Source of the DNA: a virus
Strand: one strand, 5' to 3'
IMG/VR virus record: IMGVR_UViG_3300035698_006226
Span: 1 to 29,560 of that record
Length of the DNA: 29,560 nt
Positions 10,145-22,581 of the stretch are shown one piece after another. The position numbers and the translations under genes are program-made. The notes under the pieces were generated by a model, which saw nothing but the letters and a program-made list of their open reading frames with translations, searched no databases and had not been told where the DNA came from. Positions within the stretch are counted from its first letter, which is position 1. Every line of letters begins with the position of its first letter.

Positions 10145-10594
10145 TTATTTTTTAGTCTTTACGTTTATTGGTTTTTTGCCTGCGCCACCAGACTCTTTGC
10201 CAGGTCTGCCTGCTTTGCGTTGTGCAGAACGTTTTCTTCTTACTGCTGATGCTTTTTGTTTTTTAGTCATAGATCTTGCTTTGGATGCTGGTGCACATTT
10301 TGCATAGCCTTCTTTGTCACCTGATGTGCCACACTCGGGATGACCACCACCTTTTTTCTTTTTGGCAATGTTTACCCATTTGTCTTTGAACCATTTTCTC
10401 AGTCCACCTTTGTATGCTTCTGGTAATATAAGGTTACCGCAGTTGGCACAATAGTCTATGTCTTCTTTGACCATATGCATATACTCAAAGTATCTGCGTT
10501 GTGGTCGTTTTTTACGCAATTGTAGACCTCTAGTGCCAGGCGATTGTGGATCCTTGAGTTGTACAGGCACATCGAGTAGTTCTTGCAGTTTCAT
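10145..10594 (-). CDS. DUF5872-like basic protein with Cys pairs
   Basis: I place the start at ATG 10594 (MKLQELLDVPVQL, 149 residues), not at an upstream ATG inside the previous gene, because TAAATA lies exactly five bases before it. The protein has a CANC pair (C49, C52), a GGLRKWFKDKWVNIAKKKKG stretch (62-81) with ECGTSG and KC following, which resembles the DUF5872 domain of phages and large viruses, and a Lys/Arg-rich tail (MTKKQKASAVRRKRSAQRK). The function of that domain is unknown to me. The Cys residues could bind zinc and the tail could bind DNA. The N-terminus belongs to the M-x-phi-x-E-phi group described in the findings. Confidence 0.75.
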   Translation of the reverse strand: MKLQELLDVPVQLKDPQSPGTRGLQLRKKRPQRRYFEYMHMVKEDIDYCANCGNLILPEAYKGGLRKWFKDKWVNIAKKKKGGGHPECGTSGDKEGYAKCAPASKARSMTKKQKASAVRRKRSAQRKAGRPGKESGGAGKKPINVKTKK

Positions 10595-10598
10595 AGTG

Positions 10599-11267
10599 TT
10601 ATTTACTGTCGTCTTTGATATTGAATTGTGTAGGTGTTTCTCTTTCAAACTGAGTAAAGTATGAATCATCAGTAATCGAGTCTTCTCTGGTATTTTCTAC
10701 TGTGTAAAAGTTTTGGTCAATCAGATATCCAGGATTCTTTTGCAGTCTTTCTTCCATGAATGCATCATCATACCAAACTGTTCTATTGTTAGGATAAGCA
10801 AAGAAATTACCGTCATCCATTCTAAACATGTGAGCACATTTGTGTTCCGGATCTTCTGAGAAGTTTGTATCAAGATTGGATCCCTTTGCTTCCCAAGACC
10901 AGTCTATTGTAAACATGTATGTACCTTTGCGTTTAGCACCCTTCCAATCCAACAGTTCTGCTCTACAATTGGCAAGTCTATTTCTTACTTGCACGTTCAC
11001 ATAAGGAGAAAAACAGTCCCAATATTGATGTATGTTAAGACTGTGTTGCGGTGCATCTTTCTTCCACACAAATGAATGTATTGGTCTTCTGGTCCAATTA
11101 ACACCATTGGGCATTAACACTTCAAACAGTAATGCTCTGCGTTCCAATGACGCTACACAGTGAACATCACAGAATGTGAATTCTCCATGACCTTTGGTAT
11201 GATTGTAAAGATATTCATTTCTGATATAGGCTGAGAATGGTGGAATATTATGGTTGAGGTACGCCAT
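10599..11267 (-). CDS. Unknown late protein (222 aa)
   Basis: I do not recognise this 222-residue protein, though I believe similar proteins occur in T4-like marine phages. It is rich in aromatic residues, Asn and His, with a soluble mixed composition: YLYNHTKGHGEFTFCDVHCV near the start, FVWKKDAPQHSLNIHQYWDC, a FTIDWSWEAKGSN stretch and an acidic C-terminus (TREDSITDDSYFTQFERE). No membrane segment or signal peptide is visible. Its ATG lies 11 bases downstream of a 22-base palindrome. Its end overlaps the TAAATA element of the next gene. It is transcribed with virion-type late genes, so a structural role is plausible. Confidence 0.75.
   Translation of the reverse strand: MAYLNHNIPPFSAYIRNEYLYNHTKGHGEFTFCDVHCVASLERRALLFEVLMPNGVNWTRRPIHSFVWKKDAPQHSLNIHQYWDCFSPYVNVQVRNRLANCRAELLDWKGAKRKGTYMFTIDWSWEAKGSNLDTNFSEDPEHKCAHMFRMDDGNFFAYPNNRTVWYDDAFMEERLQKNPGYLIDQNFYTVENTREDSITDDSYFTQFERETPTQFNIKDDSK
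10600..10607 (-). promoter_or_regulatory. Late promoter-like AGTAAATA, 5 bases before ATG 10594
   Basis: The minus strand reads AGTAAATA-ACACT-ATG. It fits the window-wide TAAATA-N5-ATG pattern and overlaps the TAA stop of the upstream gene. Confidence 0.5.
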
Positions 11268-11278
11268 TCATTAGTACT

Positions 11279-11300
11279 TACCAGTTCTTAAGAATTGGTA
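11279..11300. repeat. 22-base near-perfect palindrome
   Basis: TACCAGTTCTTAAGAATTGGTA pairs at 10 of 11 positions with its own reverse complement, centred on TTAA. It sits in the 56-base gap between the GIY-YIG endonuclease gene and the 222-residue gene, 11 bases before the latter's ATG. It could be an operator for a dimeric protein, a hairpin in the mRNA or the target of a nuclease. No T-run follows, so it is not a typical terminator. Confidence 0.75.
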
Positions 11301-11323
11301 GCCCTTTGTTGATTTTTACCATT

Positions 11324-11938
11324 TTACGCTACTTCCTTGTACTTGCTTAATTGTTCTACTAGGAAGCCTTTGTGCTTGCCTCTGCTAATATATTTACCCA
11401 TACTCTTCTTCCAATGTAATGTATTATAGTTCCAGTCTTTGTTTTTGCAAAGTTCTTTAAACTCTAATCCGTTAACAGTATGTTCTTCGCCTGTGTTTGT
11501 AGTGATGCGATATGTATATTGTTCGCTACGCATACGAGAACTTTTAGATCCGCCCTTGGCATGCCAAGACTTATCCATACCAGTAAAGTTTTTGGCATAC
11601 TGTTGACCTGCTTTACGCTGGTGTTCTATAAAAGCATCGTAGTCATATTCTCTTAAACCGTGTAAATAATGTTTGCCACCGTATGCATTGTTATAAGACA
11701 TAGGATCTTTGACTACAGTTTCGTTGACTCTTTCTTTCTCCAACTCCCACAATTCATCTGCACTATTTGCTGTTGCAATAATTTCTTTAGTAAAGTTTTC
11801 AACGCCATACTTATTGATAGCATTTTTAATACCTATACCACTACCCATATAGGAATCATTTACATTTTTAGTAGCGTGTCTACCAATGTAATATTTTCCA
11901 TTTATATGGTTAGTTATTTTATAGATAGTATAATGCAT
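11324..11938 (-). CDS. GIY-YIG homing endonuclease
   Basis: A 204-residue protein starting YTIYKITNHINGKYYIG, the GIY-YIG nuclease signature, followed by the conserved Arg and helix (GRHATKN), GSG and AINKYGVENFTKEI, and a Glu in ELWELEKE that fits the metal-binding Glu. The C-terminal half (YTYRITTNTGEEHTVNGLEF onward, then TLHWKKSMGKYISRGKHKGF) looks like a small DNA-recognition module with an HTH-like segment. Free-standing enzymes of this kind cut allelic sites lacking the gene and spread by repair. The ATG shares one base with the preceding stop (TAATG), so it is inserted neatly between two late genes; no intron is seen. The following palindrome may have come with it. Confidence 0.88.
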   Translation of the reverse strand: MHYTIYKITNHINGKYYIGRHATKNVNDSYMGSGIGIKNAINKYGVENFTKEIIATANSADELWELEKERVNETVVKDPMSYNNAYGGKHYLHGLREYDYDAFIEHQRKAGQQYAKNFTGMDKSWHAKGGSKSSRMRSEQYTYRITTNTGEEHTVNGLEFKELCKNKDWNYNTLHWKKSMGKYISRGKHKGFLVEQLSKYKEVA

Positions 11939-12366
11939 TACCAGGCCTTACAACTCCAATATCTTGCTTTGGTCTTAGATCCTGGGTTGTCGCAATTGTG
12001 TCTGGCTCTGAATGATTTGCGCCTTGCGGGGTTTGATTTTCTTATTTTCATTGTCTTTTCTCCCCTTTTTTTGGCACTGGTTCCGCCATGGCCAAAATTA
12101 ACTTTTTTTATGTTTCCAGTTTTTGGATCTTTCACATACACTTTAAATTTAGAAACATCGCCACGTGTTGGTTTGTTTAGTTTAACTGTACGTCCTTGGT
12201 ATTCTGCTTCCAGAGTGTTAAGCAGTTTACCTGCTATTTCGTCTGTGTAAACTAGTATGTTGTCACCGCGTACTTCAATAATCGGAGTATCGATTGCAAG
12301 TGCATCACCAAATTCGAATGTAAGCACATCGCCTGGTATTGGATTTTGTAATTGGCCAATACGCAT
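11938..12366 (-). CDS. Unknown late protein with basic C-terminal motif (142 aa)
   Basis: I choose ATG 12366 (MRIGQLQNPIPGDVL) because it shares its first base with the upstream TAA (TAATG); an ATG seven codons earlier would overlap more. The first 75 residues look like a beta-rich fold (DVLTFEFGDALAIDTPIIEV, DNILVYTDEIAGKLL), then comes KVYVKDPKTGNIKKVNFGHG and a conserved-looking basic tail MKIRKSNPARRKSFRARHNC, DNPGSKTKARYWSCKAW. I recall such tails in proteins of marine T4-like phages, but no function. The Cys pair and Arg/Lys-rich tail suggest nucleic acid or metal binding. The N-terminus (M-R-I-x-Q-L) is a near match to the M-x-phi-x-E-phi group. Confidence 0.75.
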   Translation of the reverse strand: MRIGQLQNPIPGDVLTFEFGDALAIDTPIIEVRGDNILVYTDEIAGKLLNTLEAEYQGRTVKLNKPTRGDVSKFKVYVKDPKTGNIKKVNFGHGGTSAKKRGEKTMKIRKSNPARRKSFRARHNCDNPGSKTKARYWSCKAW

Positions 12367-13514
12367 TATTTTGTAGCCATTCTCCAACCACCGCCCATTT
12401 TTTTGTATTCTTTGGCCGCATAAGCATTTGCATAAGCAGACGGATACACATCAAATTTGGATCTGGCTTTGGCTTTGGCTCTGCTCCATTTTTCTGGAGA
12501 TGTAGGTGCAGGTTTCTTTTTGCCTTTTTTCTTCTTCTTGGCTTCATCTAGTGCTTCTCGTATCACTGCTTCATCCACATGTTCTACAGAATCAAACTTG
12601 TACATCAGTTTTGTGGCATCGTCTTCGAACTCTTCTGATGCCATATAATCTTCCAATGACTTATATTTGTTTTGAATGTCTTCTTTGTTAGGACCATTGT
12701 AATATAATTCTTTTGCTAGGTCTTCTTTGTGATCATCAAATGCTTCTACCATATTTTCTAAAAGTCCAAGATCATCCAGTTCGTCTTCGATCCATTGATA
12801 AGGATCGCCATCTCTTGCTTTTTGTGTACCATATGGCATATCACCGGTGGCAGAAAAATGTTGGAATAATGCATCGAATAAATTTGCTTGATCGTGTAAT
12901 GGTTCGCCATCTTTAAGTGCGTTATACTCTTCCGGATGTTTTGCAAGAATGTCCATCACTGCTGAAGTTTCATCTTCATTTGTTTGCTCTTGTTCAGATG
13001 TTCCAATACCTAATCCTTTATTCTGTAGTGCTTGATATACACCGTCTCTGGGATTACTATCCATACTATCTACTTTTTTATAAAAAGCATTCATATCTGT
13101 TAATGCCAATCTCATCAATTCTTCAAAATCTTTTTTATCTGCTTTACCTGAATCGCCTGTCCAAAACGCTGGATATTGTGCCACATATTGTTTTAACGCA
13201 TATGCTACTTTAGGACTTGTATTAGGCCCAATATATGCTGGGTTGTTTGGATCTTTTCTTAATCCTTTAGTTTTAACTTCTCTAGCGTCTGGAAAAGGAA
13301 GTTCATCTTCACCCATTAATACTTTTACTAATGGTGACTTTGCAAATGCTTCATTTTTTGCAACAAGATTTTTCAAATATGTTCTTGGTTGTATACCTGA
13401 TGCTCTAGCAGAGTCAGCAATCATTTTTTCAAAGTCTAAAAGTTTTGATTTTACAGTTTCTTGAACCTTTTTGTTTTCCATAGATTCGAACAGATTTGTT
13501 AGTACACTGGACAT
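12366..13514 (-). CDS. Unknown late protein with KFDVYPSAYAN C-terminal motif (382 aa)
   Basis: A 382-residue hydrophilic protein. The N-terminal part is helical (SVLTNLFESMENKKVQETV onward). The middle is acidic (DALFQHFSATGDMP, DELDDLGLLENMVEAFDDHK). The end is strongly basic: EAKKKKKGKKKPAPTSP, then a conserved motif KWSRAKAKARSKFDVYPSAY followed by ANAYAAKEYKKMGGGWR. That last motif recurs at the C-termini of proteins from phages and other large viruses, as far as I recall; its function is unknown. The gene starts five bases after a TAAATA element with no Shine-Dalgarno, so it probably leads a late transcript. The next gene is coupled by TAATG. Confidence 0.75.
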   Translation of the reverse strand: MSSVLTNLFESMENKKVQETVKSKLLDFEKMIADSARASGIQPRTYLKNLVAKNEAFAKSPLVKVLMGEDELPFPDAREVKTKGLRKDPNNPAYIGPNTSPKVAYALKQYVAQYPAFWTGDSGKADKKDFEELMRLALTDMNAFYKKVDSMDSNPRDGVYQALQNKGLGIGTSEQEQTNEDETSAVMDILAKHPEEYNALKDGEPLHDQANLFDALFQHFSATGDMPYGTQKARDGDPYQWIEDELDDLGLLENMVEAFDDHKEDLAKELYYNGPNKEDIQNKYKSLEDYMASEEFEDDATKLMYKFDSVEHVDEAVIREALDEAKKKKKGKKKPAPTSPEKWSRAKAKARSKFDVYPSAYANAYAAKEYKKMGGGWRMATK

Positions 13515-13519
13515 AGCGA

Positions 13520-13527
13520 TATTTATT
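13520..13527 (-). promoter_or_regulatory. Late promoter-like AATAAATA, 5 bases before ATG 13514
   Basis: The minus strand reads AATAAATA-TCGCT-ATG. The TAA stop of the upstream 87-residue gene (13528-13526) overlaps the 5' end of the element. Confidence 0.55.
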
Positions 13528-13789
13528 AACGACGAAGTTTAGAGTTGGATTTAGACTGCCCCATCCAACTGGCTTTTCTACGTAGTTCTGTGTAGTTATT
13601 AGGACCAATTACTTGACCATTTGCTACAATTTGATCCGAACACATGTTTTTGACCAGTATTTTGTTGATATTACCCTGTACGACAGGAACTAATTTAGTT
13701 TTTTTATAGGGTAATTGTTGGTCGACAAACAATTCATTATTGATAAAAACTCTGACTTTGGGGAGATTTTTACACTCGATGGTGATCAT
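13526..13789 (-). CDS. Unknown small late protein (87 aa)
   Basis: An 87-residue protein that I do not recognise. It is strand-rich at the start (MITIECKNLPKVRVFINNEL, then LVPVVQGNINKILVKN) and basic at the end (ELRRKASWMGQSKSNSKLRR). No motif of an enzyme is visible. It overlaps the upstream gene by ATGA and its stop codon is built into the late promoter-like element of the following gene. Its placement among virion-type late genes suggests a small structural or head-associated protein. Confidence 0.7.
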   Translation of the reverse strand: MITIECKNLPKVRVFINNELFVDQQLPYKKTKLVPVVQGNINKILVKNMCSDQIVANGQVIGPNNYTELRRKASWMGQSKSNSKLRR

Positions 13790-14028
13790 CTTTTAAGTAA
13801 CGGGCCACCAAATAATGACACATTAGGCATGTTCAAAGCATTGTCTGTAGGTTTTTGTTTTTTTACTTTTTTATGCCTTGGAGATTTAGTTCCAGACTTG
13901 CCTGGCGAGCCTGTGTATGATGTTTTAAACCTATCCGGGTTTGCAATATGTGGATTGTTTACAGTAGCAATATTTCCTGCACTTGTTGCTCCTGCTGTTG
14001 CCTGTTCTACAATTTCTTTAAATTTCAT
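13786..14028 (-). CDS. Small basic late protein with M-x-phi-x-E start (80 aa)
   Basis: An 80-residue, probably disordered protein: MKFKEIVEQATAGATSAGNI, then ATVNNPHIANPDRFKTSYTG, a Lys/Gly-rich middle (GKSGTKSPRHKKVKKQKP) and LFGGPLLKR at the end. I recall the ATAGATSAG-x-IATV-xNPH pattern from other T4-like marine phages, without a function. It is coupled to its upstream neighbour by ATGA, which fixes the start. It belongs to the group sharing M-x-phi-x-E-phi, here with E5 and I6. The composition suits DNA binding or packing inside a capsid. Confidence 0.72.
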   Translation of the reverse strand: MKFKEIVEQATAGATSAGNIATVNNPHIANPDRFKTSYTGSPGKSGTKSPRHKKVKKQKPTDNALNMPNVSLFGGPLLKR

Positions 14029-14858
14029 TTTTTTAATATCTCCAACATATTTAATCGAACTGCTAGGCTGGACATGTAAGAAAAATATATGCTATCGTGG
14101 ATAAAAAAGTGATAATCCCATATGGATTTGACTTTTTTAATGAATAAAAAAGGCCGATCGATATCAATCTTTGGCAAAATTTTTAATCTTGATTGTTCAA
14201 ATTCTCTAGCCAACCTATCTGAGCAATTGACTTGACGACCACTGTGTCTCTTTTTCTGTCTTGGAATCATTACACCATATCCTTGCACATGGTCAGGAAT
14301 AGAAAAAATATTTGATCTAAACAAGTAGCAATCTTTACTGTCTACTGTTACTTTGAGCATTTTTTGGCTGCTCATGCTAGGCGAGAATTCATGATCTTGT
14401 ATATCAATACTAATTTTAAACACTCCGTCTTCATCTATCGAGTAGTCTTTGTAATCACATACAAATTCTAATTCGTTAGGGCTAGGAGGATGTGTAATAC
14501 CATTGTGTGTGAATTCTTCTCCAAATTTACACACAGCAGACACAGTGTGTTGACTGTCTGCTATAAAACTTTTTGTTGTTATTTGAGACACCCACACTGT
14601 GTGTGTTGCACTAAATTGTCCACTTATTATTTTAAATTCAAAACTATTTGTTTGGTCGGCTGGAGTTTCTACAAATGTGTTTACATCTACAAGTTCTACT
14701 TCTGCACATATAGTATTGTTATGGAATACTCTTACAGTGTATTGTACGCTTGGATCTATTTTTGTAATCACAAATCCAAAATTGTGCACCACAGGATACT
14801 CCATGACTCTAATGTCTGGTACATGGCTCCATGGCCTGTTAATTGGTAGTAGAGACAT
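14025..14858 (-). CDS. Unknown beta-rich late protein (277 aa)
   Basis: A 277-residue protein with many alternating strands in the first 190 residues (FGFVITKIDPSVQYTVRVFH, TICAEVELVDVNTFVETPAD, AVCKFGEEFTHNG), similar in feel to virion tail, neck or decoration proteins. A VTVDSKDCYLFRSNIFSIPD segment leads into a short basic stretch (RQKKRHSGRQVNCSDRLARE) and a final aromatic helix. I cannot assign it to a named family. It overlaps both neighbours (TAATG with the gene before, ATGA with the gene after), which fixes the start at 14858. Confidence 0.7.
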   Translation of the reverse strand: MSLLPINRPWSHVPDIRVMEYPVVHNFGFVITKIDPSVQYTVRVFHNNTICAEVELVDVNTFVETPADQTNSFEFKIISGQFSATHTVWVSQITTKSFIADSQHTVSAVCKFGEEFTHNGITHPPSPNELEFVCDYKDYSIDEDGVFKISIDIQDHEFSPSMSSQKMLKVTVDSKDCYLFRSNIFSIPDHVQGYGVMIPRQKKRHSGRQVNCSDRLAREFEQSRLKILPKIDIDRPFLFIKKVKSIWDYHFFIHDSIYFSYMSSLAVRLNMLEILKK

Positions 14859-15184
14859 TATTTCTTCTTTTTAGCACGGCCACGTTTCATATTTAGATTC
14901 CATTGAGCCATTCTTTTGCGTTCGCCTGAGGCAGTGCTGGCAATTTTTTTAAGTTGAGATATACTCATTTTTTGATTGACACCAACTCGTTTTGATAATC
15001 CTTTGCGTCCTGGCTTCTTGCCATCGGCAAAACTATCTTTGATATAAGTTTGGTTGCCTTCACCGCGTCTTGGATCAGTGTTGATTGGAACATAATATGT
15101 CTTGCCATCTTTGGTCACTTTTTTTAGACCCATAGGTTTTGCTGTGTGTGGCATGGGTACGCCAATTACTTCAGTGATTCTCAT
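14858..15184 (-). CDS. Basic late protein with M-x-phi-x-E start (108 aa)
   Basis: I choose ATG 15184 (MRITEVIGVPMPHTAKP, 108 residues) because it forms an ATGA overlap with the upstream stop; an ATG further upstream would overlap by 52 bases. The protein is very basic and probably extended: KKVTKDGKTYYVPINTDPRR, then KKPGRKGLSKRVGVNQKMSI, SQLKKIASTASGERKRMAQW and a Lys/Arg tail. The GRKGLSKRVGVNQKMSISQL part recurs in marine T4-like phages as I recall. There is no enzymatic motif. The start matches the M-x-phi-x-E-phi group (E5, V6). Head-internal, DNA-associated roles would fit. Confidence 0.75.
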   Translation of the reverse strand: MRITEVIGVPMPHTAKPMGLKKVTKDGKTYYVPINTDPRRGEGNQTYIKDSFADGKKPGRKGLSKRVGVNQKMSISQLKKIASTASGERKRMAQWNLNMKRGRAKKKK

Positions 15185-15378
15185 TTGCTTCTTAGTTTCA
15201 CAGGACCAGTCATATAAGGTCTTGAAAACCATAATTTAAACCAATCTGGATCCCCTGGACGTAGACCTAGTTCACGTTCTTTGCGTCTTTTTTCTGTGCC
15301 TGTGATGGATATGTTTTCTTTGGGAGTTTGATCATACACACCTACGCCAGCAAGTTTTTTAAGTTCTTCGAGTGTCAT
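15181..15378 (-). CDS. Small late protein with PGDPDWFKLWFSRPYMTG motif (65 aa)
   Basis: A 65-residue protein. The first half is M-T-L-E-E-L-KKLAGVGVYDQ, fitting the shared M-x-phi-x-E-phi start. The second half is EKRRKERELGLRPGDPDWFK followed by LWFSRPYMTGP, a compact Trp-rich motif that I remember from other phage small proteins; its role is unknown. It starts five bases after a TAAATA element, so it probably leads a late transcript, and its end is ATGA-coupled to the next basic protein. Confidence 0.75.
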   Translation of the reverse strand: MTLEELKKLAGVGVYDQTPKENISITGTEKRRKERELGLRPGDPDWFKLWFSRPYMTGPVKLRSK

Positions 15379-15383
15379 CCATG

Positions 15384-15391
15384 TATTTAAT
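15384..15391 (-). promoter_or_regulatory. Late promoter-like ATTAAATA, 5 bases before ATG 15378
   Basis: The minus strand reads ATTAAATA-CATGG-ATG. It lies in the 139-base gap 15379-15517, which otherwise holds only a small hairpin near its far end and no gene that I can see. A real gap on its upstream side supports a promoter role. Confidence 0.6.
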
Positions 15392-15486
15392 AAATTATGA
15401 ATCTGTCATGGACTTCGTATGACTGGCACAATTCCTTGAAAATTGAATTTAAATAGGATTAGGTGTGTTAAAAGGACAGATGTTTA

Positions 15487-15513
15487 CAAAAAGATTTTCA
15501 AGCACTATGCTTG
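15487..15513 (-). terminator. Possible weak terminator after the 54-residue gene
   Basis: On the minus strand CAAGCA-TAG-TGCTTG (15513-15499) forms a six-pair stem, followed after five bases by CTTTTTG. It starts five bases beyond the stop codon at 15518. The stem is short and the T-run is offset, so termination may be weak. Confidence 0.4.
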
Positions 15514-15517
15514 TTTA

Positions 15518-15682
15518 TTATTCTGTTGTTTCTACTTCTGGTGTAAATGAGGTTTCAGAGTTTGATTTGAGACTGTTGTAAATTGCATCTGATTCTTTTT
15601 TAATCATGTCTTTGAACATGGTCTGTGCTTCTTGTTCATTGCCTGCTACAAGCGTGTCTAATACTTTTCCTAAGTCGTTCAC
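15518..15682 (-). CDS. Small acidic protein with GTG start (54 aa)
   Basis: Read directly from the sequence: GTG 15682 shares its G with the upstream TAG stop (TAGTG), the same one-base coupling seen as TAATG elsewhere. It encodes 54 residues: an N-terminal helix (LGKVLDTLVAGNEQEAQTMF), a second helix (KDMIKKESDAIYNSLKSN) and an acidic, Thr-rich end (SFTPEVETTE). The size and acidic helical nature recall small T4 prohead core proteins such as gp67, but there is no clear sequence match, and I do not assign it. A hairpin follows the stop. Confidence 0.65.
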   Translation of the reverse strand: MNDLGKVLDTLVAGNEQEAQTMFKDMIKKESDAIYNSLKSNSETSFTPEVETTE

Positions 15683-15990
15683 TATTTTACCTCTTCGATT
15701 CTAAAATTTATATTGTATGTTTTGCCATTGTGATTGTATTGGACATCGGCCGAGTTCATACTGTTTTCTGTTGATTTGACATTGCATCCTAAATCACTAA
15801 GTCCTGTTTTGATTGTTTCAGAAATTTTTAACATGTGATCAACAGTTTCTTCTGCTAACTTTGCAAACTCGTCTTCTTTGTCTTTGAGTGCATCCATGAT
15901 CTTACTGTACTGAACAGCATCTGCGTTTAGAGCAAGATTGTCTATGCTGTTTGCAAGTCTTCTCATTTCGTAACCTTCGCGACTACTCAT
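15682..15990 (-). CDS. Unknown helical late protein (102 aa)
   Basis: A start at ATG 15990 (MSSREGYEMRRLANSIDNLA) gives 102 residues and an eight-base overlap with the upstream gene; an earlier ATG at 16014 is possible. The first 75 residues are helical and charged (SKIMDALKDKEDEFAKLAEE, TVDHMLKISETIKTGL), probably a coiled coil, and the end is strand-like (VQYNHNGKTYNINFRIEEVK). I do not recognise it. It lies between the 605-residue acidic protein and the small GTG-start gene, coupled to both, and so probably belongs to the same late function. Confidence 0.7.
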   Translation of the reverse strand: MSSREGYEMRRLANSIDNLALNADAVQYSKIMDALKDKEDEFAKLAEETVDHMLKISETIKTGLSDLGCNVKSTENSMNSADVQYNHNGKTYNINFRIEEVK

Positions 15991-17800
15991 TTCTGTACAT
16001 TTCACAACCGCCAAATTCAGTTGTTACTTCTCTAAAAAGTTTTTCACCTAGATCTTCGTACATAGATTTGATTGCATCAACTGCTAAGACTTGATCTTCA
16101 AAAAAGTTATTCGCATTTAGATTTAATTTGTTTAAATTATGATTTACTGGTCGAGTGCCGTTGCCATCCTGTGAAAGATATGGTACATCACCTGCTCCGA
16201 TTTGTCCAACAATTTTGCCTTCTTTTACAAGATAAGCAACTCTGTAAGGAGTAGTATCACCTTCCCATGCTCCGTCTTCTGCTACAAGGCCTTCACCTTT
16301 GTCTACAACTTCTGCCACAATAAATCTAGAACCATCATACAGTGTTTCGTCTGCTATAACTCTTGCTGATGCTGTAAGTCCTAGTGCTTCTTGTACTCCA
16401 CCTACTAGCATTAATTCATACTGTCTGTTTAGTTCAGCAATCATTCTGTCTGTGTCTGTAACACTTTCATCTTTTTTGTTTTCTTTATCTTTGGCTGCCT
16501 TTTTCATAGGCTCTTTTTTGTCGCCATCTTTGTCAAGGTCTAGGTAGTCTGGTTTTGCTTCATCAACTTCTTCTTTGTCATCGTCTTCATCCTTACTGCC
16601 TTGTTTTTTTGCAATAGCCTTTTGTAAGCCTGCTGGTAATTTTTTTTGAGCCGCTGTTAGTTCTTCATCAATCTCTTCACTTTCTGGAAGTGGATTGTCG
16701 CCGCTAGACGCTGCCGATGGCCCCATTTTTGAATTAGGTATTACGTTACGTTTTAATTCATAATCTTTTGGGTCTAAATACTGTTCACCTGGTTCATTAT
16801 CGTAAGTTTCAGTTTCTGGTTCATCCATGCTTGATTGCATTGATGCTTCAGGTTCTTGCCCCATAGGCTCCATTGCAGGTTCCGGCATTGAGGGTTGCGG
16901 TTTCTGAATGTTCATTTGATTTGGGTCAAGTCCTGCGTTTTTAAGTATAGTCATAAGGGCAATGGAATCTTCCAATGTATCTGTTGTGATACTAATACCC
17001 TCGTTTAGTTTCTTCTTGTCTGACATTGTTGATTCTCCTATCTTTTGTATGTCGTCCTTTATCGCTTTGTCTTTTTCTAATGCTTTTTTACGGTTAATTA
17101 ATTCTTTTCTAAGTTCTGGATCTTTCGAAGTATTAGGATCTAATTGAATATCTTGCAATGCCTTTGCTTTAGCATTGTAATCATCTTTGTCTTTTGTGGA
17201 TGTGTATTTTTCAGATACTTCGTCATCTGTTGGATTTTCTAGATAGTTTCTTACTGAATTTAATTTGTCTGCCGCAACTGCAATTTTGTTGGTTAACCAT
17301 GTGTCTAAACTATCTGTGCCTTTTTTGTCTTTAAACATTTTGTACAAGTGCATTGCATCTTTCATAATCTGTGCTGTGATAGATTCCATTGAATCAGCAT
17401 CTGTGTGACCGTCTTCCATTTTTGCTATACGAAAGTGTGGACCTTCATGTGAATCATGTGAACAGTTACAATCTGGTTGTGGATTGTCTTGTTCGCATCC
17501 ACAGTCTTTGCACTTCATTACAGGTGCATCATCCATTAAGTCACTAATGTCTTGGTAGTCACTGCTATTGACTTTATCCCACATACTTGCTTTGTCTTCG
17601 CCATGTTTGGCAACAAAGTCTACTTTGCTCATTTTAGTTGCATCATCTTCCAGATCCATCAGCATGTCTTTAACTTTGCCTTCTTCTACTTCTACGCCTT
17701 CTCTAGCAAGTCTTTCGCTATAATGTTCTGGTTTAGATACTAGATTTACAGCATCCCATCTTTTATATAAGTCGGCCATAAAGTCTGATTGGTGTGACAT
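15983..17800 (-). CDS. Large acidic late protein with Cys cluster and EF-hand-like loop (605 aa)
   Basis: A 605-residue, very hydrophilic protein. Residues 97-113 hold five Cys (KCKDCGCEQDNPQPDCNCSH), followed by His-rich sequence, which suggests metal binding. Around 150-200 there is a helical stretch (IAVAADKLNSVRNYLE). Around 300-400 it is low complexity, Pro/Glu/Met-rich. Then come ELTAAQKKLPAGLQKAIAKK and DYLDLDKDGDKKEPMKKAAK; D-L-D-K-D-G-D matches an EF-hand or dockerin calcium loop. The last 120 residues look folded (RVAYLVKEGKIVGQIGAGDV). I recall the last two basic/acidic motifs in structural proteins of marine T4-like phages. The gene leads a transcript with TATAAATA five bases before ATG. 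Virion or scaffold-associated is my best guess. Confidence 0.7.
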   Translation of the reverse strand: MSHQSDFMADLYKRWDAVNLVSKPEHYSERLAREGVEVEEGKVKDMLMDLEDDATKMSKVDFVAKHGEDKASMWDKVNSSDYQDISDLMDDAPVMKCKDCGCEQDNPQPDCNCSHDSHEGPHFRIAKMEDGHTDADSMESITAQIMKDAMHLYKMFKDKKGTDSLDTWLTNKIAVAADKLNSVRNYLENPTDDEVSEKYTSTKDKDDYNAKAKALQDIQLDPNTSKDPELRKELINRKKALEKDKAIKDDIQKIGESTMSDKKKLNEGISITTDTLEDSIALMTILKNAGLDPNQMNIQKPQPSMPEPAMEPMGQEPEASMQSSMDEPETETYDNEPGEQYLDPKDYELKRNVIPNSKMGPSAASSGDNPLPESEEIDEELTAAQKKLPAGLQKAIAKKQGSKDEDDDKEEVDEAKPDYLDLDKDGDKKEPMKKAAKDKENKKDESVTDTDRMIAELNRQYELMLVGGVQEALGLTASARVIADETLYDGSRFIVAEVVDKGEGLVAEDGAWEGDTTPYRVAYLVKEGKIVGQIGAGDVPYLSQDGNGTRPVNHNLNKLNLNANNFFEDQVLAVDAIKSMYEDLGEKLFREVTTEFGGCEMYRNE

Positions 17801-17805
17801 GTGTG

Positions 17806-17813
17806 TATTTATA
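17806..17813 (-). promoter_or_regulatory. T4 late promoter consensus TATAAATA, 5 bases before ATG 17800
   Basis: The minus strand reads TATAAATA-CACAC-ATG, the exact T4 late consensus. In T4 the element spans about -13 to -6, which would place the transcript start on the A of ATG. Confidence 0.65.
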
Positions 17814-17833
17814 ACTCTACTGCTGGTAACTTC

Positions 17834-18901
17834 CTAAGTAGAAAGTCCTATCTGTGGGTAAGGATTATTGCTTGGATCTTTTAATGCTAACGCATATGCA
17901 GTGGATATTTCTAATGCAAAACCGTTGTTTATAACGTCTTTTACACTTTCAATAAAGGTATACGTTTTTTGACCCATGTTGATAAACAAAATTCCTGAAA
18001 GATCGCCTTTGGCTCTTTTAGTTTGCAAATAGTATTGCAGGCTGGCTTGTCCATAAAGTTTCCTAGCCAGTTCGTTATCCTTGATAAGTGCATTGGATAT
18101 TTTCTCTAATCCGTCCACTCCTGGAAATATATTGTTCAAAATAGTTGTTACATCGTTGATTATGGTTCTACTCTTAGAAGTTTGTACTAGTTTTGCTAAT
18201 TGTCCCAGGTTCATACCCTGTACCGACCTCATGCTTAACCCTTGATCTTCTAGATCTTTAATGTTTTTTTCATATTTGGCCATAAATTTATCAACCAGGC
18301 CAGGGTACTGAGATGTTACAGTAACATTTCTGTCTGTTAGTCTAGCATTCTTTACTCTCTTGGCCTTAAGTTCTACAGGTATGCCATCTACTAATAAATC
18401 GCCTGTACCAGCACCCGCACCTATACCTGCAATGCCTTTGCTTAACACTGCTAGAGCAAATTCACCTGGGCCTACTCCTTGTGCAATTACATCATTTAAA
18501 TCATCTACAAGTTCAGTCATAGCAGGATCTTTTCCATATCCTGAAAATACATCGCTTATTTTATGAATACCACCTGTGGTTAATAATTTTTTGTTTACTA
18601 TTTTGTCTGCGTTCCACAGTTTAAAAAGTTTTTCTCTGCCTGCGGTGTCAAAATCTACAGTGGATACTATTTTAGCAATTTTTTGTACTGATTTTTTCAC
18701 GTCAATGTCGTCAATATCTTGTACCCTAGATAGCAAAGATGATACTCTACCACCAACTCCTGCATCATTTAAAAACTGTTCTACTCTGTCTATAAGAGCC
18801 GCAGTTTTATCATCAGTTGGAAGACTTTGCAGTTTTTTAATTAAATCGACCTTCTGAAGTTTTAATTTTTCTGGATCTATCATAAGTTCGATAAGAAGCA
18901 T
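17834..18901 (-). CDS. PD-(D/E)XK nuclease-like protein
   Basis: A 355-residue protein. The central segment GPGEFALAVLSKGIAG (E147) followed by TGDLLVDGIPVELKAKR (D168, E177-x-K179) matches the E...D...ExK core of restriction-type PD-(D/E)XK nucleases, where a Gly-Asp turn sits before a strand carrying ExK. The helical N-terminal region (about 1-110) and the C-terminal region (about 200-355) have no motif that I know. If active it would cut DNA, perhaps host or competing phage DNA. It starts five bases after a TAAATA element and shows the M-x-phi-x-E-phi start (M-L-L-I-E-L), so it may be packaged in the head. A non-catalytic structural use of the fold remains possible. Confidence 0.6.
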   Translation of the reverse strand: MLLIELMIDPEKLKLQKVDLIKKLQSLPTDDKTAALIDRVEQFLNDAGVGGRVSSLLSRVQDIDDIDVKKSVQKIAKIVSTVDFDTAGREKLFKLWNADKIVNKKLLTTGGIHKISDVFSGYGKDPAMTELVDDLNDVIAQGVGPGEFALAVLSKGIAGIGAGAGTGDLLVDGIPVELKAKRVKNARLTDRNVTVTSQYPGLVDKFMAKYEKNIKDLEDQGLSMRSVQGMNLGQLAKLVQTSKSRTIINDVTTILNNIFPGVDGLEKISNALIKDNELARKLYGQASLQYYLQTKRAKGDLSGILFINMGQKTYTFIESVKDVINNGFALEISTAYALALKDPSNNPYPQIGLST

Positions 18902-18906
18902 AAGTG

Positions 18907-18914
18907 TATTTACA
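18907..18914 (-). promoter_or_regulatory. Late promoter-like TGTAAATA, 5 bases before ATG 18901
   Basis: The minus strand reads TGTAAATA-CACTT-ATG. The TAA inside it is the stop codon of the upstream 147-residue gene. Confidence 0.5.
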
Positions 18915-19353
18915 AAGAAATACTAGGAAGATGTTCTTGAGAGAGACTTTCACGTTCAAGCATGCCTACGTATACGCCTACAGCAACTCCGGATATCATC
19001 ACCGTGGCTTCCCATAATTCACCGTTTTTTCCGTCACTGTATAAGTCTTTATACACTTCTAGTTTTTCTGTGAGCAGTACTGTAAAATTGTAGTTGTTAT
19101 CTTGCACACATTCATTGGAGATAATAGCCGCAGTCCAAATTTTCATTGCTTCATTGGCATCATAAGGGTTCTTAGTCATATACAAGTCAGCCACAGTTCT
19201 TAACACAGCATCACTTTTACACATTGCAATCACTTTGGCAAATTCGCCAACCATCCATTCGTGCTCTGTACTGTGTGCAGGTTTAATTAACCAAGCCACA
19301 ATCACAATTATCATAACAAAAATGCCGGGTATTAATTTTTCTTTATTGTTCAT
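18910..19353 (-). CDS. Membrane-anchored or exported protein, unknown (147 aa)
   Basis: A 147-residue protein with an N-terminal hydrophobic segment after two charged residues (MNNKEKLIPGIFVMIIVIVA, then WLIKPAHSTEH), which could be a signal peptide ending near AHS or a membrane anchor. The rest is a helical domain with Cys at two positions (IAMCKSDAVLRTVADLYM, AAIISNECVQDNNYNF) and a second mildly hydrophobic stretch (ATVMISGVAVGVYVGMLE) near the end. I do not recognise the family. Two Cys in an exported domain might form a disulfide. It starts five bases after TAAATA and its stop is built into the next element. A role at the host envelope is plausible. Confidence 0.7.
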   Translation of the reverse strand: MNNKEKLIPGIFVMIIVIVAWLIKPAHSTEHEWMVGEFAKVIAMCKSDAVLRTVADLYMTKNPYDANEAMKIWTAAIISNECVQDNNYNFTVLLTEKLEVYKDLYSDGKNGELWEATVMISGVAVGVYVGMLERESLSQEHLPSISL

Positions 19354-19358
19354 ACTGC

Positions 19359-19366
19359 TATTTAAT
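19359..19366 (-). promoter_or_regulatory. Late promoter-like ATTAAATA, 5 bases before ATG 19353
   Basis: The minus strand reads ATTAAATA-GCAGT-ATG. It lies in the 73-base gap 19354-19426. The gap also contains TATAAT (19379-19374) upstream, GCATG-N5-CATGC and an A/T-only palindrome AAAAACTA-TAGTTTTT. These make a promoter region likely. Confidence 0.55.
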
Positions 19367-19426
19367 TTTTATTATACTGATTATAAACGAAAAACTAATA
19401 GTTTTTTTGCATGAATGACATGCAGT

Positions 19427-19903
19427 TTAGTTGATGCCGGCGTGTGTGGCACCCATCTTTTTGCCATCTCTTGCAATAGCGTTCATCTTTTTAACAATTT
19501 GGTTCATGTAGCCTTCATCCCTGCCGCCTGACACTGCTGTCATGCCACCTGGAGTTGCATCAGTCTGAGATGGTTCTTCAGGAGACAATTTACCAATGTT
19601 TTTCTGCAACCACTGAGTGGTTCTTGCAATAAATTCGTCAATTGGTATTGTACCTTCTTCATCATACCCTAGGGTATTCATTACGTCACGGGCATTTGCA
19701 TTTGCAAGGCCAAGAGCATGGTCTGGATTGTACTTAGGATTTAGATGATCAAAAGCATCACCATCAAAATCTCTTGCATAAACTTTGTCTTGGAACCTGG
19801 ATTCATCACCAGTAACTGGTCGCCAATATCCATTTTCTGGATTTTTTTTATAAGCATGGAAACTCATACTCTCCACAATTTTGTTTACTTCACTGAATCT
19901 CAT
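19427..19903 (-). CDS. Unknown late protein with M-x-phi-x-E start (158 aa)
   Basis: ATG 19903 (MRFSEVNKIVESMSF) forms an ATGA overlap with the nucleotidase stop; an earlier in-frame ATG would overlap by more than 80 bases. The 158-residue protein is soluble: a YWRPVTGDESRFQDKVYARD segment, DGDAFDHLNPKYNPDHALGL, a helical middle (FIARTTQWLQKNIGKLS), a Pro/Thr/Gly-rich linker and a final helix (GYMNQIVKKMNAIARDGKKM, then GATHAGIN). I do not recognise it. It ends the operon that begins at 22581 and shares the N-terminal sequence pattern with four proteins of that operon. Confidence 0.72.
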   Translation of the reverse strand: MRFSEVNKIVESMSFHAYKKNPENGYWRPVTGDESRFQDKVYARDFDGDAFDHLNPKYNPDHALGLANANARDVMNTLGYDEEGTIPIDEFIARTTQWLQKNIGKLSPEEPSQTDATPGGMTAVSGGRDEGYMNQIVKKMNAIARDGKKMGATHAGIN

Positions 19904-20442
19904 ATCAATTGCTTCTTCATTTGTTGTATAGTTGTATTTATATTGCCCTGTGAGTGCTGGATACCGATTCCTCCAGCAGTTTGCCACTTCTTAATATTAT
20001 ATCCAAAATCATCTATCAGTATGTTTGCAGTACCGTCTGACTGTTTGGCATAGATGCCCTTGTCAGCTGTTGCAGGCATAATAATAATTTCATTTGGTTG
20101 CAATGATAAATTTTGTTGTATCCACTGCATCTTTTGAGACTTAACTTTTTGATCACCTGCGAGTGCTTTTGATAACACTTTATATTGTCCTTGGAACAAT
20201 GCCTGTATGGCTTGCATCAGTTTAGGAGCATCTGGAAGCACCGCTAAGTCCAACCAAAAACTTTCACTCTTGGAAATGTCTCTTAGAACTTTGCTCACTG
20301 TATCTTTAGATGCTTGTTTCCAACTTGATACACCAGCCATCTTATTAAAAGGACCATAGAAATCTGCTAATACACCATCCATGTCTACATATAATATAGG
20401 TTTAGATTGTTCTTGTTCTTGTTCTAATTCAAATAGATTCAT
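19900..20442 (-). CDS. HAD-type 5'-nucleotidase-like phosphatase
   Basis: ATG 20442 ([18 protein letters not shown]) is chosen for its ATGA overlap with the zf-CHCC stop. The 180-residue protein has the haloacid dehalogenase motif I as VDMDGVLADFYGPFNK (D20, D22), as in 5'(3')-deoxyribonucleotidases, and a late ILIDDFGYNIKKWQTAGG segment matching motif IV (DD) and the following N-x2-W. A Lys that fits motif III is in the KVKSQKMQWIQQNL stretch. Such enzymes dephosphorylate nucleotides. The extra 12-15 N-terminal residues before the HAD core are unusual and carry the M-x-phi-x-E-phi pattern (M-N-L-F-E-L), suggesting an added targeting peptide. Nucleotide salvage or removal of a host signal nucleotide are options. 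Confidence 0.78.
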   Translation of the reverse strand: MNLFELEQEQEQSKPILYVDMDGVLADFYGPFNKMAGVSSWKQASKDTVSKVLRDISKSESFWLDLAVLPDAPKLMQAIQALFQGQYKVLSKALAGDQKVKSQKMQWIQQNLSLQPNEIIIMPATADKGIYAKQSDGTANILIDDFGYNIKKWQTAGGIGIQHSQGNINTTIQQMKKQLI

Positions 20443-20585
20443 TTTGGTTCCTTGTATATGTATTTGATGCCGCAGTAGCCACACACAGCAACTCCTTCAT
20501 CGCCGATCTTGTAATACACTTTAGGATGATCACCAAGTTCACCATTACATGTAACTTCTCTTTCATGCACAACTATTTCGTTCAT
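20439..20585 (-). CDS. zf-CHCC (NDUFS6-type) mini zinc-finger protein (48 aa)
   Basis: ATG 20585 ([15 protein letters not shown]) gives 48 residues and an ATGA overlap with the DUF1289-like gene. The sequence has [18 protein letters not shown] followed by [13 protein letters not shown]. This matches the zf-CHCC family (C..GHP-x-V-Y......CPYC-x-x-x-Y), found in mitochondrial complex I subunit NDUFS6 and as free-standing small proteins in alphaproteobacteria. The ligands C, H, C and C are all present. The function of the bacterial forms is not well known; in complex I the domain binds zinc during assembly. Capture from an alphaproteobacterial host is likely. Confidence 0.8.
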
Positions 20586-20740
20586 CTTGTTTCTAACTCT
20601 TTTAGGTTTTGCATCTTCCACTCATCTATAGTATCAGTGTAACCCCACGTTGCAATTTCTTCTTCGGTTCTGTTACAGCCTATGCAATAACCGCTGTCTG
20701 AATCTATAGTGCAAATACTAATACAAGGACTTTCTATCAT
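20582..20740 (-). CDS. DUF1289-like four-Cys mini protein (52 aa)
   Basis: Read directly from the sequence; it fills the space between two annotated neighbours with ATGA overlaps on both sides. The 52 residues begin [20 protein letters not shown] and continue [16 protein letters not shown]. The four Cys (6, 10, 19, 22) and the C-x2-C-x-RT-x-x-E-I-x-x-W pattern match DUF1289, a small Fe-S-like or zinc-binding family of proteobacteria. Its biochemical role is unknown. Being next to a zf-CHCC protein suggests that both work together or were captured together. Confidence 0.82.
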
Positions 20741-22008
20741 TTCTTTTTTTGTTTCTTGTTAAGATGAAGTTTTTTCACGTTCATGTATTCACTGCCAACT
20801 GGTATATCCTTTGTAGCATTTTGTTTGGTCACAATACCTACACCAGCCGCTTCGTCTAGATCATATTCAAGTGTATTTTCTCGCACTGTTCCTACAGTAA
20901 GTGCTGGTTTATTAATAACTTGTTTGTCTGATGGATTCACAGTCACACTGCTAAGAGTTAATGGATAAACTGTATGATTGTCCCGGTCTTTGTATTCTTG
21001 ATCTGTTCTAATAATGTATCTGCCATTCTGTTTAAATCCTGCTTGAGCAAGTTCTTTGGCTGGAATAGGTATAACCATCTGTCTAATGGCCTCCTCAGAA
21101 TCTTTTTTCTTGGTGTTTCTCATTGAACTTTTTTTGAATCCATCACTCACAAGTAGTTCTGGTCCATATTCATCTTTACCTACAATAAGAATAGGTCCTT
21201 GTTGACCTTCCCCAACCTTGGCATAAAAAGTTCCGCCAATGTATGGGTCAACAAAAAATACTCCAGTTGCTTCTGTGTTGAACAGCAAACTGGTTGTTTT
21301 GTTTAATGATGCAACTGTGTCTGAGTATTTGTATTCTTTGTCAATCAAATCTTTGAGTGTTTGAATGGCGTCATCTTGGGTCTTGCCACCTGCTTTGCGT
21401 TGTTGTTTGCTGTTGTGTTTGTGAACACCGTGTGCTATGAATGGAGGTGTTGCTCCTGTTTTTTGCACTGTGAGAGCAAATTCGCCATGGTCACCTGCAG
21501 GCTTGCGATCTGCATATTCTACAATGTCGATGTCCTTGAGATTGTTTTGTGTATCATCATACATCAAATCTTTTAGGTGTGGAAAATTTGGTATATTTGC
21601 TCTTATTCTTTCGAAAGCATATTGTTCAATCTTCCGAATACTTGAAGGTCCTTTCAAGTGAGGATATTTGTCCTTCAGGATGTTATAAGTTTCTTCCCAT
21701 GTTTTTCCGTCGGAACCATCAACGCCAAACCTCAATTTGATAATTTCAATAGGCAAAGGATGATCGAAAAGTTTTTCAATATGACGAAAGATTTCTTTAA
21801 ATTTTTTTTTTTGATCAGTTGTTTTTTCTAAATTCGTTCCGCTTGGTGTGTTTTTTGAAATTTTTTCTAATGATGTAAAGTATTCCGGAGAAAATAGATC
21901 TTTCTTTTTGATCCGACCACGTTTATATTTGTCTCCCAATTCCCAGGACTTGGCAAACGCATATTCTAAGTCTCGTTCTGGATTTTCGTCTATTTCGTAG
22001 AATTTCAT
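20737..22008 (-). CDS. Unknown protein with sigma-region-4-like segment (423 aa)
   Basis: A 423-residue protein. Residues 85-140 resemble sigma70 region 4: [20 protein letters not shown] fits the IIxLRFGLDG...TLEE start, and a helix-turn-helix end reads [18 protein letters not shown], like RIRQIEAKALRKLR. The insertion between the two helices is a little longer than usual. Regions 2 and 3 are not seen. From about 170 there is [20 protein letters not shown], and from 240 to 400 a beta-rich domain ([32 protein letters not shown]). The tail is Lys-rich. The N-terminus is M-K-F-Y-E-I. It lies three bases after the nucleotidyltransferase stop. It might bind RNA polymerase or DNA; a virion role for the other domains is also possible. 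Confidence 0.6.
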
Positions 22009-22011
22009 TTT

Positions 22012-22581
22012 TTACTCTTGTACACCCATACCTTGTCTTACTTCATCATACATGGCTTTAGACAGTTTTTCATTTGTGCTACTGATCATTTTTTTGAAGG
22101 ACTCGTAATCACCCTGCATTGCGGCTTGCCTCGCCTTGGATGCTGATACACCTGCTGTGCCTTCTGCATCGGGATCACGCTCACCTGCAGACACAACATT
22201 GATTGAATCGAATTTATATTCTTTTCCATTATAGTCATTTAACAATTTTTGAAATGCATCAACCCTGTCTGATCCTGCTACCATGGTTACATCTTTGATG
22301 CCTTGCTCCTGAATGGATTTCATTACATCGATTATTGTTCTAATACTGTTATCGACAACAATGCCTTTTGTGTGTTTGGGGAACTGCATACTTAAAAAAG
22401 TCAATTTCCTATCATAAGGCAGTGGATTACTTTTTTTATCTTGTTTTTGTGAAGCATATATTTTGTAGTTAGAGTTTACACTTGCTAATTTGTCTAACAA
22501 CTTTCCATGACCTGCTGTTGGTGGATTAAATCTGCCAAAAACAAATGCTAAATTATTATTTTGTACTTCGTTGAATCTCAT
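22012..22581 (-). CDS. HIGH-superfamily nucleotidyltransferase
   Basis: A 189-residue member of the cytidylyltransferase/NMN adenylyltransferase superfamily. The nucleotide-binding motif is FVFGRFNPPTAGHGKLL (13-29), where the family has GxFDPxHxGH, and a late GVSASKARQAAMQGDYESF stretch matches the ISSTxxR signature with the SxxxxR contact. The central region (VTMVAGSDRVDAFQKLL) fits the Rossmann-type fold. Substrates could be NMN, phosphopantetheine or a polar head group; I cannot tell. The fold starts after a short M-R-F-N-E-V peptide, which again fits the shared N-terminal pattern. It leads the operon 22581-19427, with TAAATA nine bases before ATG rather than five. Confidence 0.8.
   Translation of the reverse strand: MRFNEVQNNNLAFVFGRFNPPTAGHGKLLDKLASVNSNYKIYASQKQDKKSNPLPYDRKLTFLSMQFPKHTKGIVVDNSIRTIIDVMKSIQEQGIKDVTMVAGSDRVDAFQKLLNDYNGKEYKFDSINVVSAGERDPDAEGTAGVSASKARQAAMQGDYESFKKMISSTNEKLSKAMYDEVRQGMGVQE

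Follow-up and report, generated by a model that had tools for sequence, protein, structure and literature searches.

In bacteriophage T4, the internal proteins carry an N-terminal capsid-targeting sequence (CTS); IPIII starts with MKTYQEFIAE/AS and IPI with MKTFKEFTSTTTPVSTITE/ATLTS (here and below, a slash marks a known or predicted processing site). A ten-residue tag of this kind can load foreign proteins into the T4 head; to our knowledge, few natural head cargos have been described outside T4, and the virions of marine phages contain many proteins that lack an assigned place or function. It was reported from mutagenesis of IPIII that residues 4 and 7 serve mainly in targeting and residues 8 and 10 in processing, and that Asp at position 10 blocks processing but not targeting (PMC9026906). 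IPI starts MKTFKEFTSTTTPVSTITEATLTS and has 95 residues, and its mature form has 76 (PMC3012670); since 19 of the 95 residues are removed, the residue before the cut is E19 and not Glu6. The present analysis deals with a fragment of 29,560 bases of a marine giant phage from IMG/VR (record IMGVR_UViG_3300035698_006226; this whole stretch is the window), in which nine proteins of a late gene cluster begin with M-x-phi-x-E-phi, where phi is a hydrophobic residue. This pattern is real and statistically strong, and it is likely (with a probability of roughly 80%) that the nine proteins are head cargo recruited by a short T4-like targeting half.

Because the DNA polymerase of the window is closest to those of Agrobacterium phage Atu_ph07 and Sinorhizobium phage Phosso, and next to the RaK2/PBECO4 group, the source is classified by its sequence as a T4-superfamily jumbo phage that is RaK2/Atu_ph07-like and not phiKZ-like. 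No near-identical phage was found in the annotated phage collection. Two contigs, G001 (69 kb) and G002 (50 kb), are close syntenic relatives which have most of their genes in common with the window at about 50–90% identity, and head genes are present in larger relatives (G003, G004, G006, G012, G016, and G018). According to annotation and synteny, relatives encode a gp21-type protease, a scaffold core, and a gp23-like major capsid protein (MCP) with a matching, predicted cleavage junction. The counts given below refer to 11 related contigs (the window and ten jumbo-phage contigs) with 2,107 called genes, which are not independent samples, as homologues recur; genes in the relatives were called by a simple caller of our own, and alternative starts were accepted in the counts of the pattern as well as in those of the controls. 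The window itself served to define the pattern, which makes the window count alone circular and the counts in the relatives less so.

The nine proteins, each named below by the position of its first base, are listed here together with one subregion and one near miss.

10145–10594, minus strand: basic protein of 149 residues (phrog_23735, weak DUF5872); its start MKLQELLD is a putative targeting half with D instead of E at position 8.
13786–14028, minus strand: member of an 80-residue family, MKFKEIVE/QATAGATSAGNIATVN, which comprises a putative targeting half, a predicted prohead-protease site after E8, and then the sequence of an MCP mature N-terminus.
13957–14028, minus strand: first 24 codons of gene 14028, which match the MCP maturation junction of Phosso and K64-1.
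14858–15184, minus strand: basic protein of 108 residues with an MRITEV start and a basic C-terminal module (about 14861–14968).
15181–15378, minus strand: 65-residue protein starting MTLEELKKLAG, from a family kept across the marine clade (MDLSELKRLAG, MELSELKRLAG).
17834–18901, minus strand: 355-residue protein with an MLLIEL start; invariant D168, E177, and K179 merely hint at a nuclease.
19427–19903, minus strand: 158-residue protein, MRFSEVNKIVE/SMSFHAYKK, with possible cleavage after E11, kept in G002 (MRLHEFKQINE/GMSFHAYKK).
19900–20442, minus strand: 5'(3')-deoxyribonucleotidase (NT5C) with an MNLFEL start.
20737–22008, minus strand: 423-residue protein with an MKFYEIDE start, possible cleavage after E8, and no family match.
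22012–22581, minus strand: cytidylyltransferase-like enzyme with an MRFNEV start.
11938–12366, minus strand: near miss with an MRIGQL start (Q for E), whose 82% identical G002 protein starts MNFEEL.

All nine N-termini are present exactly as quoted in the initial annotation, and the remainders of the proteins differ, as BLASTP among them detected no homology beyond the start. The same initiating Met is found in G001 and/or G002 homologues of 10594, 14028, 15184, 15378, 18901, 19903, 20442, and 22581; with regard to 22008, no relatives were found in IMG/VR, and there was no full-length relative to confirm its start. Within the window, the motif is carried by 9 of the 21 genes at 10.1–22.6 kb versus 0 of 24 elsewhere (Fisher p = 3e-4), so that the comparison with early genes proposed in the initial annotation turns out in its favour. 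Across the 11 contigs, 107 ATG starts fit M-x-phi-x-E-phi, compared with 10–46 for controls of the same shape, in which E was replaced by D, K, S, N, A, T, or Q, E was moved, or the frame was shifted. Chance or composition as the source of the motif is ruled out by these controls. When the second residue is limited to K or R, the numbers are 55 for M-[KR]-phi-x-E-phi and 4 for M-[KR]-phi-x-K-phi. Clustering of the motif-bearing marine proteins without their first 12 residues gives 46 unrelated clusters, and genes of G001 and G002 that have no homologue in the window are also tagged (MKVNEITGITE, MRLSEFVESFADG, and others). Different codons are used at positions 3, 5, and 6; therefore, the signal lies in the protein and not in the DNA.

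In all nine proteins, the hydrophobic positions 3 and 6 are three residues apart, as are residues 4 and 7 of T4, and E5 equals T4 Glu6. Protein 10594 (MKLQELLD; its relatives start MKISEIMD in G001 and MKLIELGID in G002) carries Asp where the processing residue would lie. Membership in the T4 CTS kind is well supported by what the sequences show of position, spacing, gene context, the cleavage junction, and an orthologous enzyme, as is the earlier proposal of a head-targeting peptide of T4 kind on these late proteins, which other genes of the window lack. Candidate tag peptides are MKISELLETATAGA, MKLQELLDVPV, and MRFNEVQNNN. A processing site of the form phi-x-E within about 20 residues is clear in 14028, plausible in 19903 and 22008, and absent in the other six.

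The key to this reading is the family of 14028. The first 24 residues of this protein match residues 50–73 of the Phosso MCP, SPLMETATAGATSAGNVATLN, as well as a K64-1 stretch, RALFESATAGATTAGNIASVN, which lies upstream of and outside the annotated MCP gene; in T4-like phages, the propeptide is cleaved off in this region of the MCP. The small protein has relatives on more than 200 IMG/VR contigs, and its distinct full-length variants consist, with minor departures, of M-[KR]-[IL]-x-[ED]-phi, 0–6 variable residues, phi-x-E, and (Q/T/S)A(T/S)AGATSAGNIATV. In some 45 variants, the start is constant, the spacer varies, and phi-x-E precedes xA. The start motif is therefore an element of its own, set apart from the cleavage junction by a variable spacer. 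The MCP junction of the same genomes reads NTRKYLAE/SATAGATSAGNVATLN; in G004, YLAE/SATAGATSAGNVATLN of the MCP stands beside ELLE/TATAGATSAGNIATV of the small protein, and G003 and G006 are similar. Letter by letter, the small protein has ELLE/TATAGATSAGN and the MCP of the same phages YLAE/SATAGATSAGN. As a separate observation, the annotated MCP start of K64-1 (NC_027399, about 86475–86689) lies too far downstream, and the N-terminal part that contains the propeptide is encoded upstream in another frame; a frameshift, either in the record or in the gene itself, is suggested by this arrangement.

Motif-bearing genes also adjoin the head genes of the relatives. The gene directly after the portal, at the place of gene 67 in T4, starts MLLNEFFYF, MLLREFFYF, MILRELYYF, or MILRELFYF, and it reads MKLTELFNPLTES in Atu_ph07 and MRYNEFSKES in Phosso; upstream of the portal, a further gene has the start MRINELLTES, MRLNEFITED, or MKVFEIISEN. 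A second module has been recognized near the C-terminus of 22008:

20761–20853, minus strand: C-terminal module of 22008, common to other motif-bearing phage proteins.

Its consensus is EAAGVGIITKQNTTxDV (in a wider form, [E]AAGVGI[IV]TKQN[TA]TxDV), and it was found by a scan on more than 100 contigs (loci L412–L491). The tag start as defined here is present in 37 of the 44 distinct full-length carriers, and among the seven remaining carriers, several appear tagged on visual inspection (MRAYQFISE, MRSYEFVSE). A Glu shortly precedes the module in 56 of 56 distinct copies. The module possibly acts as an additional element for processing or for binding; in T4, cleavage of Alt occurs at both of its ends (PMC9026906).

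The relatives of the 22581 enzyme connect the window to virion data. Among their distinct N-termini, 47 of 57 fit phi-x-x-phi-phi-(x)-E, a pattern written after the list had been seen; it is matched by 5% of shuffles, and a version in which K takes the place of E is matched by 1 of 57. These tags grade continuously through MKSFSQYITE/A, MKKFSELVE/A, MRRFLELIE/Q, MFLRELFE/A, and MRLREIFE/A; because such intermediates link the T4 type to the window type, E5 aligns with T4 Glu6. The second Glu is lost or moved in the window and two close relatives (MRFNEVQNNN, MKLQEVNSKE, MKLTEVENNT). The P-RSM4 member, T4-GC190, starts MKKFNAFLIE/A. It was reported that T4-GC190 was detected by mass spectrometry in the S-SM1 virion (PMC3037559) and that the S-CREM2 virion contains the cytidylyltransferase member of that phage (PMC10665884).

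With regard to S-CREM2, all 52 detected virion proteins were translated, and 137 undetected proteins were compared with them. Virion proteins starting with [FL]xxF[LMF]xE include a SAM hydrolase (MKDFDSFLEE), an APH-like kinase ((V)KRFDAFLTE), the cytidylyltransferase (MKNFSSFLTE/A), and the hypothetical proteins gp13 (MKDLHSFLTE) and gp136 (MQTFSMFFSE), and nearly every virion enzyme that is neither structural nor lytic bears the tag. Separately, gp12 (OR473000, 7704–10313, minus strand), a Cas9-like nuclease of the virion, has LRFASFMAE/A after a short extension, as if loaded by a T4-type tag. Since the text of the S-CREM2 paper mentions neither capsid targeting nor a prohead protease (PMC10665884), the loading signal seems to be previously unnoted there.

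A mechanism can be proposed as follows. M-x-phi3-x-E5-phi6 would be the targeting half of a T4-like CTS, one residue shorter than that of T4, in which phi3 and phi6 replace Tyr4 and Phe7 and E5 replaces Glu6. Late in infection, the start segment would attach to the prohead's scaffolding core, and the protein would consequently be enclosed before shell closure, stay among the DNA, and enter the host with it, where any effect might be exerted. Some members may add a processing half, a phi-x-E a few residues on that would be cut by a gp21-type prohead protease. The predicted cuts lie after IVE8 in 14028, whose predicted site copies the maturation junction of the MCP itself, probably after IVE11 in 19903, and perhaps after IDE8 in 22008. 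The remaining members, such as MKLQELLD with its Asp8, would be loaded and left uncut, in line with the reported effect of Asp in T4 IPIII.

The initial annotation had placed the cut at the shared phi-x-E5, whereby all nine proteins would be processed five residues in (phi3-x-E5/phi6). This site formally satisfies the T4 rule L/I-x-E, and six of the nine proteins have no other good site, but we regard cleavage there as improbable. The spacing of the T4 targeting residues 4 and 7 makes E5 the counterpart of Glu6, which is not a processing residue and is not the final cut in IPI, and the cytidylyltransferase intermediates give the same alignment. In the 14028 family, the MCP-like junction is at E8–E14, apart from the motif, and the residue after E5 is by definition hydrophobic and always large, whereas MCP-like junctions mostly have S, T, or Q there.

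A still less probable idea is that the motif docks to a target other than the core, such as the tail, the injection path, or a host partner, and that the proteins are virion-bound or late-acting for another reason. Most members do seem uncut and motif genes tend to be late, but these genes adjoin the portal, protease, and scaffold genes, 14028 has an MCP maturation junction, and the same enzyme carries T4-type tags elsewhere. Least credible of all is a translation or mRNA signal, in which the first codons of apparently leaderless late messages would be constrained for initiation. The combination TAAATA-N4-5-ATG is over-represented before motif genes (20 of 88 versus 55 of 1432); on the other hand, 68 of the 88 lack this promoter, 55 leaderless genes lack the motif, and codon usage at positions 3, 5, and 6 is diverse. 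A DNA or initiation signal as the main cause is refuted by this codon diversity and promoter split.

Several findings weigh against head cargo loading by a T4-like targeting half. Six of the nine proteins have no convincing second phi-x-E, whose frequency downstream of the motif exceeds the background only by a factor of about two (0.43 versus 0.20 at positions 8–14, clade-wide), and the ancestral cut site is gone from the cytidylyltransferase of the window (MRFNEVQNNN). The MCP, protease, and scaffold genes of this phage lie outside the window, and gene starts in the relatives depend on our simple caller. Motif enrichment, strong in the marine clade, is weak or absent in Atu_ph07 and P-RSM4, where a genome-wide excess of the exact pattern was not found. 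Virion detection comes from the cyanophages S-SM1 and S-CREM2, which are outside this clade; cyanophages have T4 spacing and not window spacing, as do the tags of S-CREM2 and most of those on cytidylyltransferases. In S-CREM2, a loose T4-type pattern fixed beforehand showed no clear excess (5 of 52 detected versus 7 of 137 undetected proteins), and only a pattern tightened post hoc separates the two sets (5 of 52 versus 1 of 137, p = 0.006, indicative only).

As for the functions of the cargo, the list given in the initial annotation stands in part. A nucleotidase (Pfam NT5C) and a nucleotidyltransferase (CTP_transf_like) are confirmed, basic proteins are evident from the sequence, and the nuclease and the sigma-like protein found no support from Pfam, NCBIfam, PDB, or a low-confidence fold. 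For 18901 as a nuclease, an AlphaFold model from three sequences had a mean predicted local distance difference test (pLDDT) score of 47, and a PDB profile search returned chance matches only; for 22008 as a sigma-like protein, Pfam, NCBIfam, and PDB gave no support. The basic C-terminal module of 15184 (14861–14968, minus strand; SLRKKAKxASGERxKMYHWCANMKSGRKKKK-like), perhaps DNA-binding, is found again in several proteins with the motif (for example, at loci L432, L462, and L479).

Some further features of the cluster were observed. A 54-residue protein (15518–15682, minus strand) shows similarity to the N-terminal domain of the head-core proteins located next to the portal and the MCP, with 34% identity to Phosso gene 325 over 35 residues, and is perhaps a stand-alone head-core paralogue in the cargo cluster. 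A homing-endonuclease-like gene (11324–11938, minus strand; weak NCBIfam match to a group I intron endonuclease) lies within the late cluster. TAAATA, a T4-type late promoter, is found 4–5 nucleotides before the ATG of 74 marine-clade genes (window and ten marine contigs), and its sites in the window are at 10605, 13525, 15389, 17811, 18912, 19364, and 25108 (minus strand). By T4 numbering, a transcript from such a TAAATA starts at or next to the ATG, and leaderless late mRNAs are a possibility in the marine clade, to judge from this spacing; in Phosso, Atu_ph07, and the cyanophages, it is mostly 18–28 nucleotides.

Should the short tag prove real, sequence data could serve to predict which proteins whole clades of uncultured ocean phages pre-load and inject, and these could be tested individually; among them would be nucleotide-metabolism enzymes, DNA-binding proteins, and, for one cyanophage, a nuclease that is Cas9-like. 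In nature, the tag would then have a targeting half that is separate from its processing half, and many members appear loaded but uncut. A broader proposal, which we put forward tentatively and hold at somewhat less than even odds, is that marine jumbo phages and T4-like cyanophages have in common a modular head-cargo code, in which an N-terminal targeting half that functions whether or not it is cleaved would be combined with exchangeable enzyme or DNA-binding domains and often with the second module (E-AAGVGI[IV]TKQN[TA]TxDV). Such a code would mark dozens of unrelated injected proteins, the Cas9-like nuclease of S-CREM2 among them, and would allow the injected effectors of abundant ocean phages to be listed from sequence alone.

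Compared with known systems, the proteins described here differ from those of the giant phages phiKZ, 201phi2-1, and SPN3US. In these phages, a gp21-type protease removes N-terminal propeptides from many head proteins by cutting after Glu, as proposed for some of the proteins here, but several propeptides exceed 100 residues, the sites are A/S-x-E, and there is no common six-residue start. A long propeptide of the phiKZ/SPN3US type ending in A/S-x-E was not found among the proteins studied, whose predicted junctions lie at residues 8–14, mostly after L/I/V-x-E. They resemble T4 IPI, IPII, and IPIII (and Alt) in having an N-terminal signal of two hydrophobic residues three apart around a Glu, an optional spacer, in some members a predicted phi-x-E site before a small residue, unrelated remainders, and late expression. 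Unlike in T4, the first hydrophobic residue is at position 3 and not 4, at least nine tagged proteins, metabolic enzymes included, are encoded in one 12-kb cluster, and many members seem to be without the processing half. Finally, the virion-associated non-structural proteins of S-SM1 and S-CREM2 include the same cytidylyltransferase family, and most of the S-CREM2 set bears T4-type tags.

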